Source of the DNA: Prochlorococcus sp. AG-409-F19
GTDB lineage: Bacteria > Cyanobacteriota > Cyanobacteriia > PCC-6307 > Cyanobiaceae
Reading direction: 5' to 3'
NCBI GenBank assembly: GCA_003215795.1
Contig: QCJV01000002.1
Coordinates: 57,945-121,944 of the forward strand
Length of the DNA stretch: 64,000 nucleotides
Each line of letters begins with the position of its first letter. Positions within the stretch are counted from its first letter, which is position 1. Of the stretch, positions 37,779-39,104 are shown in pieces. A program made the position numbers and the translations under genes. The notes below the pieces were generated by a model that searched no databases, was not told the origin of the DNA, and saw nothing but the letters and a program-made list of their open reading frames with translations.

Positions 37779-37970
37779 TCAATGAGGAACAGATGGTCTG
37801 ACAAAAAACGCAAGCAGAACAATAAAGCCAAGAAATCCAACAGCGGTCAAAGAAAAATGCAAAAGACTTTGGTTCCCTTTGCGAACCATATTCTTCATAG
37901 CTAATTTCACAAAGCTTGATGAAGGGGCTTTCTTCTCGGAAGTTTTGGTGGAAATGGGATTTTTTTTCAT
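37779..37970 (-). CDS. Small membrane protein, DUF3285-like (63 aa)
   Basis: [63 protein letters not shown]; single C-terminal TM helix between prfB and ybeY. Confidence 0.85.
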   Translation of the reverse strand: MKKNPISTKTSEKKAPSSSFVKLAMKNMVRKGNQSLLHFSLTAVGFLGFIVLLAFFVRPSVPH

Positions 37971-39104
37971 TAATCTTCACTGTCAAATTGATGATCTTGT
38001 TTGTCAATTCCTTGTAACAAGAGAGATTGAATGAACAAATCTAAATCACCATTCATAACAGCCTGAACGTCCGTAGATTCTTTCCCAGTACGTAGGTCTT
38101 TCACCATCTGATAAGGGTGGAAAACATAATTTCTTATTTGATTTCCCCAAGCTGCCTCAACCATGTCACCACGAATATCTGCAATTTCTGAAGCACGTTG
38201 TTCTTGAGCAATTACCATCAATTTTGCTTTTAATAGGGCCATAGCCTTCTCTTTATTCTGAAGCTGAGAACGTTCTTGAGTACAACGAACTGCTAAACCC
38301 GTTGGTATATGAAGAATACGAACAGCAGTTTCCACTTTATTAACATTTTGCCCTCCAGCACCGCCAGATCGACTTGTAGTTATCTCTAAATCTTTATCAG
38401 GAATCTCTAGTGGAATATCCTCATCAAGTTGAGGCATAACTTCGACTCCTACGAAACTAGTCTGACGTTTCCCATTGGCATTAAAAGGAGAGATTCTCAC
38501 TAACCGATGGGTACCTTTCTCATTTTGTAAATAACCATATGCATAGCGTCCATCTATTTCAATACTCGCACTTTTGATGCCCGCTTCTTCACCTTCAGAA
38601 AGTTCATTTAGCGTCACTTTCATACCATGCGCCTCTGCCCATCGTGTATACATTCTTAAAAGCATCTGAGCCCAATCTTGAGCATCTGTCCCTCCAGCAC
38701 CCGCATTTATTGCTAAGACAGCTCCATCCTTATCATAAGGACCACTCAACAACCTTTCAAGCTCCCAAAGATCCAGTTCAGCTTCTAATTTATCCAAACC
38801 ATTTTGAGCCTCTGTAAGCAATTCATCATCTTGCTCAAGATCATATAGATCTAAAACAGCATTCGCATCTTGGATAATTCCCTGCCATTCTATTAATTTA
38901 GTTAGTTGATCCCTAACCTCATCCAAAAGGCGCATTTGTTTTTTAGCTTTCTGTTGATCGTTCCAAAAGTCAGGCTGAGCTGCAATCTGCTCAAGATCCA
39001 ACTTCCTTGCATTTAAAGCTGGTACGTCAAAGACAGTCCTGAGCATTGCTCAGGCGATCACTCAACAAAGAAATAGACCTTTTAAAGTCAATCAGATCAT
39101 GCAC
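37970..39104 (-). CDS. prfB: Peptide chain release factor 2, expressed by programmed +1 frameshift: complement(join(37970..39028,39030..39104))
   Basis: Main ORF has SPF ([20 protein letters not shown]) and GGQ ([18 protein letters not shown]). A 25-codon GTG-initiated leader ([25 protein letters not shown]) ends CTT TGA C, followed in +1 by [23 protein letters not shown], matching the RF2 N-terminal layout. Confidence 0.95.
39026..39032 (-). promoter_or_regulatory. prfB +1 recoding site (mRNA CUUUGAC)
   Basis: Minus-strand CTTTGAC with in-frame UGA at codon 26 of the GTG leader and SD-like CAGGAC three nt upstream of CUU. Confidence 0.93.

Follow-up and report, generated by a model that had tools for sequence, protein, structure and literature searches.

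A conserved hairpin containing the SD-like element at the prfB frameshift site of Cyanobacteriia: a candidate stimulator of +1 frameshifting

The programmed +1 frameshift of prfB, the RF2 gene, is a model for how the ribosome changes frame, and its Shine-Dalgarno (SD)-like stimulator with a 3-nt spacing has been described as almost universal. A survey of 12,753 genomes placed the frameshift in 64% of them, its SD-like consensus being near AGGGGG, CTTT three nucleotides downstream and a C after the UGA that is "almost universally conserved" (PMC12421855). The SD spacing of +1 shifting is likewise given as 3 nt (PMC5009743), and in the standard model SD pairing near the P codon tenses the mRNA and favours the slip from CUU to UUU (PMC8710568). 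For cyanobacteria, the frameshift of Synechocystis 6803 has received a passing mention (PMC9426592). The prfB locus of Prochlorococcus sp. AG-409-F19, analysed here within a 64-kb stretch of its genome (hereafter the window), raises the question of what drives the shift at a site where the SD-like element is short, closer to the shift codon and partly enclosed in a hairpin.

The RF2 gene of the window and its frameshift

Minus-strand positions 39104-39026 comprise a GTG opening a frame of 25 codons in total, then CTT TGA C, with TGA as codon 26 (39029-39027) and C at 39026 (Table 1); coordinates and sequence are those given by the original prediction. An in-frame TAA lies two codons 5' of this GTG, which is thus the sole upstream start of the usual kinds, and the GAGG expected just upstream of it was found 8 nt away. 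In the +1 frame, RF2 continues to a TAA at 37972-37970, giving a joined protein of 377 aa that scored 471.9 bits against the TIGR00020 prfB model (cut-off 370), with the RF1 and PrfH models under cut-off. PDB RF2 chains align with it from residue 4 on and the SPF and GGQ motifs are both present; we identify the gene with the GTG 39104 leader as an RF2 orthologue. The genome (G000, 54% complete) holds one prfB and one weaker RF1-like match. The stop codon of prfB at 37970 shares a base with the start codon of the small ORF that follows (TAATG), which hints at translational coupling between the two.

Table 1. Features of the prfB locus in the window
Feature	Coordinates	Strand	Evidence
GTG start codon, codon 1 of the prfB leader	39102..39104	-	TAA upstream; sequence conservation starts at GTG
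Zero-frame leader ORF, 25 codons + UGA	39027..39104	-	Leader peptide kept in 80/80 named relatives
Hairpin CCUGAGC-AAU-GCUCAGG, 7 bp, 3-nt loop	39038..39054	-	Inverted-repeat scan, folding, covariation
SD-like AGGA, three bases in the hairpin 3' arm	39037..39040	-	All 153 Cyanobacteriia loci have AGGA at -8..-5 from CUU
CUU shift codon (P site; +1 slip to UUU)	39030..39032	-	Sequence; invariant in relatives
In-frame UGA then C (weak termination context)	39026..39029	-	Sequence; invariant in relatives
RF2 frame entered by the +1 shift, from GAC on (352 codons + TAA)	37970..39028	-	TIGR00020, SPF + GGQ motifs, PDB RF2 matches

The same arrangement was recovered far beyond the window. CTT TGA C stands at the same place behind the leader peptide in all 80 named picocyanobacterial loci (Prochlorococcus, Synechococcus and Cyanobium), where the leader ends Q-(D/E)-C-L, in five more genomes of the window's own family, and in 68/68 loci read from other Cyanobacteriia families (63 genomes, five fetched twice), i.e. 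85 picocyanobacterial and 68 other loci for a total of 153 Cyanobacteriia loci. The comparison of leaders across cyanobacteria that had been proposed as a check therefore upholds the predicted programmed frameshift at CUU UGA C, and no relative within the class combined an intact RF2 with a closed leader or a missing CUUUGAC. An early in-frame UGA, a stop that RF2 itself recognises, with RF2 going on in the +1 frame, and a CUU_U slippery site with C after the UGA, in the window as in its relatives, are the marks of the prfB frameshift; from these sequences we infer that prfB of Prochlorococcus sp. AG-409-F19 frameshifts in vivo. The frameshift itself is already known in kind, as had been acknowledged from the start and as its occurrence in nearly two thirds of surveyed genomes (PMC12421855) confirms.

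Expression of RF2 without any frameshift appears hardly credible. It would require that RF2 begins at ATG 39046, the gene caller's choice, or that the TGA reflects a sequencing error or a pseudogene. The longest mechanical ORF does start at this ATG, and yields an RF2 with an artificial N-terminus (MLRTVF), but the codon is present in only 54/85 picocyanobacterial loci and replaced in the other 31, and in 23/85 the RF2 frame lacks any start codon ahead of the site. Initiation there was rejected as a general mode because of this poor conservation, and the predicted truncation of the supplied ORF holds. Error and pseudogene were discarded, the same TGA and leader recurring in about 150 loci. Readthrough of the UGA was also rejected: the zero frame meets its next stop after 11 codons, so that only a +1 shift yields RF2.

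Start codons of the leader differed between lineages. Among 84 picocyanobacterial loci, the leader starts with TTG in 56 and GTG in 26, never with ATG, the other two having a GTG one codon away; in the other Cyanobacteriia, it starts with ATG in 65/68 loci. The tree needs at least 4-6 exchanges between TTG and GTG inside the picocyanobacterial clade, with no return to ATG. This pattern suggests selection for weak prfB initiation in picocyanobacteria, which would act as an extra brake, a feature absent from the original prediction.

A short SD-like element inside a hairpin

Each site was aligned to the 16S anti-SD, the organism's own 16S rRNA ending in ...GGATCACCTCCT. At the E. coli site, the anti-SD is paired to 7 nt (AGGGGGU) that end 3 nt before CUU, in a duplex of -10.7 kcal/mol, whereas the AGGA of the window forms 4 bp worth -4.0 kcal/mol. 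All Cyanobacteriia loci pair through AGGA(+1) only, at an aligned spacing of 2, one nucleotide closer than in E. coli (4 nt if one merely takes the distance between the last paired base and CUU). The 6-7 nt SD pairing of the E. coli-type cassette (AGGRGG-N3-CUU UGA C) was therefore not found at these sites, which hold AGGA alone at aligned spacing 2. SD pairing probably still matters in Cyanobacteriia, since AGGA is invariant, including the A at -5 that lies outside the stem.

An inverted-repeat scan of terminator style first picked out CCTGAGCAATGCTCAGG at 39054-39038. No other perfect 7-3-7 inverted repeat of five or more G-C pairs occurs in the 64-kb window (0.1 in shuffles); the hairpin folds at -11.3 kcal/mol, and a single-sequence fold of the 41-nt stretch gives z = -2.5. 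Its 3' arm holds the AGG of AGGA and its last stem base lies 5 nt before CUU. An intrinsic terminator was rejected, the stem being followed by ACUGUCUUUG without a U tract, and Rfam and tRNA scans of the 64-kb window gave no matches, no Rfam family fitting the hairpin.

The original prediction, in which this hairpin containing AGGA went unnoticed, had presented the site as a canonical mirror of the E. coli arrangement. The likeness stands for CUU UGA C, the 25-codon leader, UGA as codon 26, the +1 position of the RF2 frame and the presence of an SD-like element upstream; it fails for SD strength, register and hairpin, and "canonical" is too strong for a 4-bp AGGA (-4.0 versus -10.7 kcal/mol) set in a conserved hairpin that E. 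coli is without. With an AGGA one nucleotide closer, lying in this hairpin, and a non-AUG start, the window's prfB is a variant of the prfB frameshift distinct from the canonical E. coli cassette.

The hairpin and the SD also trade off between lineages: the SD is weakest in the class that carries the hairpin, and the sister lineages that lack one have longer SDs. Hairpins of -11 to -13 kcal/mol accompany an SD of -4.0 kcal/mol in Cyanobacteriia, against roughly 0 to -5 and -8 to -11 kcal/mol, respectively, in the sister lineages and E. coli, the latter being the sole comparator from outside the phylum (other bacteria were covered through PMC12421855, PMC5009743 and PMC8710568). No such hairpin exists in the non-photosynthetic family f24, in the deep lineages (median folding energies of 0 and -4.3, respectively) or in E. 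coli; SD duplexes in these three come to -8.0, -10.5 and -10.7 kcal/mol. Pairing of 5-7 nt at spacing 3 was seen in 12 deep, non-photosynthetic lineages of the phylum, and of 5 nt at spacing 2 in family f24 (19 loci).

Some prfB sites diverged in other ways. In family f24, L194 carries an apparent CCC TGA shift site (AAGGAG TGC CCC TGA A) with RF2 in the +1 frame, and L090, L102 and L193 have lost both the frameshift, RF2 being read in a single frame through ...ACA TTT GAT... or ...AAT TTT GAT..., and the SD-like element. L190, of family f31, has CTT TGA T in place of CTT TGA C, with AGGGGG at spacing 3.

Covariation and codon choice in the stem

Six or seven of the seven pairs are kept in 152/153 Cyanobacteriia loci: 82 of the 85 picocyanobacterial loci have all seven and 3 have six, and among the 68 others 48 have seven, 19 six and one five. 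In relatives the two arms vary jointly, with the combinations CCTGGGC/GCCCAGG, CCTGAGC/GCTCAGG, CCTGGGT/ACCCAGG and CCTGAGT/ACTCAGG. The pair -18/-10 is GC in 118 loci, AU in 20 and GU in 15, with one break, an A at -18 is matched by U at -10 in 20/21 cases (Fisher p ~1e-5 within AT-rich loci, relatedness uncorrected), and the pair -16/-12 alternates between CG, UA and UG. Across 55 distinct sequences and 500 shuffles, 96.1% of cells pair (91.7 shuffled), 24 cells are changed on both sides (11.2 shuffled), and the covariation score of 0.221 (0.144 shuffled) was equalled in 0/500 shuffles. Slid registers performed far worse, 11-55% of their cells pairing, and RNAalifold independently gave the same helix. 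On the protein tree, position -18 changes about 11 times; among the independent pairs with strong support, four in all, the partner agrees in about three and opposes in none, too few for significance alone.

These patterns bear on whether the repeat is an RNA structure at all. Across loci, G.U pairs number 35 and A.C only 1, an asymmetry better matched by a sense-strand RNA than by a DNA palindrome, and one that disfavours a DNA operator. The repeat might still be a role-free by-product of the conserved RLGxxQDYL protein sequence, beside an ordinary frameshift of E. coli type: conservation extends to the leader peptide, whose amino acids fix some stem bases, and in GC-rich loci codon usage alone yields at least 6 pairs 57% of the time. 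We evaluated this with a codon null, synonymous codons being redrawn with each group's own usage. All seven pairs occur in 39 of 42 AT-rich loci for an expectation of 2%, and in 44 of 45 GC-richer loci for an expectation of 19%, the loci being related and the counts thus non-independent trials. The leucine codon of the 5' arm is CTG in 153/153 loci, including 42/42 AT-rich ones where CTG makes up only about 5% of leucine codons. By this measure, codon choice in the hairpin is beyond what codon usage explains. Adding the compensatory changes across codons, the G.U to A.C asymmetry, and an SD strength and register unlike those of E. coli, a by-product appears very unlikely, and both the structure of the hairpin and the selection on it are shown computationally.

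Possible roles of the hairpin and implications for Cyanobacteriia

A conserved, stable hairpin adjoining the shift site is what an upstream-hairpin-stimulated +1 frameshift would display, and precedents exist in engineered systems. On E. coli 70S ribosomes with RF2 absent, hairpins placed upstream of CUUUGA promote the +1 shift to ~60% of the SD effect (PMC6321510), and upstream hairpins do so in yeast too (PMC3639245). They share with the cyanobacterial site a stable hairpin 5' of a +1 site and, for the 70S work, the CUUUGA itself; they are artificial or virus-derived, whereas the cyanobacterial one is native, has 7 bp closed by a triloop, and overlaps the SD.

On this basis, we propose that Cyanobacteriia have an altered 5' stimulator, in which an upstream hairpin refolds and supplies much of the +1 force that long SD:anti-SD helices provide elsewhere, a proposal to which we give an even chance. 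The 7-bp triloop hairpin, sharing AGG with the weak 4-bp SD, would refold on leaving the paused ribosome and pull the mRNA toward its 5' end; acting together or in competition with AGGA:anti-SD pairing, it would add to, or replace, the SD tension at the slip from CUU to UUU. The stronger version, that in oxygenic cyanobacteria the refolding hairpin arose at the base of the class and largely replaced SD:anti-SD pairing as the +1 driver, is plausible but held with somewhat less confidence. Geometry speaks against refolding: when the P site holds CUU, the mRNA exit region is occupied by the hairpin's 3' arm (-12 to -6), and the outer stem pairs may therefore form too late. The engineered upstream hairpin was also longer (12 bp versus 7 bp), and a 5-nt spacing halved activity in a related -1 attenuation assay (PMC3639245).

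The main rival is that the hairpin restrains the shift, because three of the four SD bases lie in the stem, making hairpin and SD pairing mutually exclusive. By competing with the anti-SD for AGG, it would lower frameshifting or tie its response to ribosome spacing or temperature, in agreement with the invariance of AGGA and with a plausibly low demand for RF2, TGA ending 13/52 long ORFs in the window. Yet at -4.0 kcal/mol the SD has little strength to lose; were a strong competitor added, not much stimulation would remain for an essential gene, and the engineered hairpins mentioned above stimulate +1 shifting. We therefore infer stimulation rather than restraint, which we consider unlikely albeit worth weighing.

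The hairpin could also be an RNA element conserved for a different function (binding of a protein, stability of the mRNA, or a block to internal initiation or antisense pairing) and lie beside the shift site by chance. Structure and conservation alone do not tell function, and as ATG 39046 falls in the loop, the hairpin could hide it. However, it is kept in the 31/85 loci lacking this ATG, it sits at the same place with respect to CUU in all loci, it includes the SD-like element and no Rfam family matches it, which makes such a coincidence improbable.

Stimulation by an upstream hairpin would have relatives among recoding systems. The 5' stem-loop of T4 gene 60 is likewise a stem behind the ribosome proposed to move the mRNA, but it serves the bypassing of 50 nt (PMC5009743), whereas prfB makes a one-nucleotide autoregulatory shift. 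The dnaX cassette also combines an SD and a hairpin as two stimulators, but for a -1 shift, with the hairpin downstream and the SD 9-14 nt upstream (PMC5009743). We found no earlier description of an SD-overlapping hairpin at the cyanobacterial prfB site in the searchable literature, and its presence throughout Cyanobacteriia appears previously undescribed.

For genome annotation, the N-terminus of cyanobacterial RF2 needs the leader, which starts here at a GTG. If the proposal is true, Cyanobacteriia harbour natural hairpin-driven +1 frameshifting in bacteria, and a hypothesis so far tested with engineered hairpins only becomes testable in native genes. A whole class departing from the SD rule, yet regulated, would separate the task of the stimulator, pulling on the mRNA, from the means by which it is achieved.
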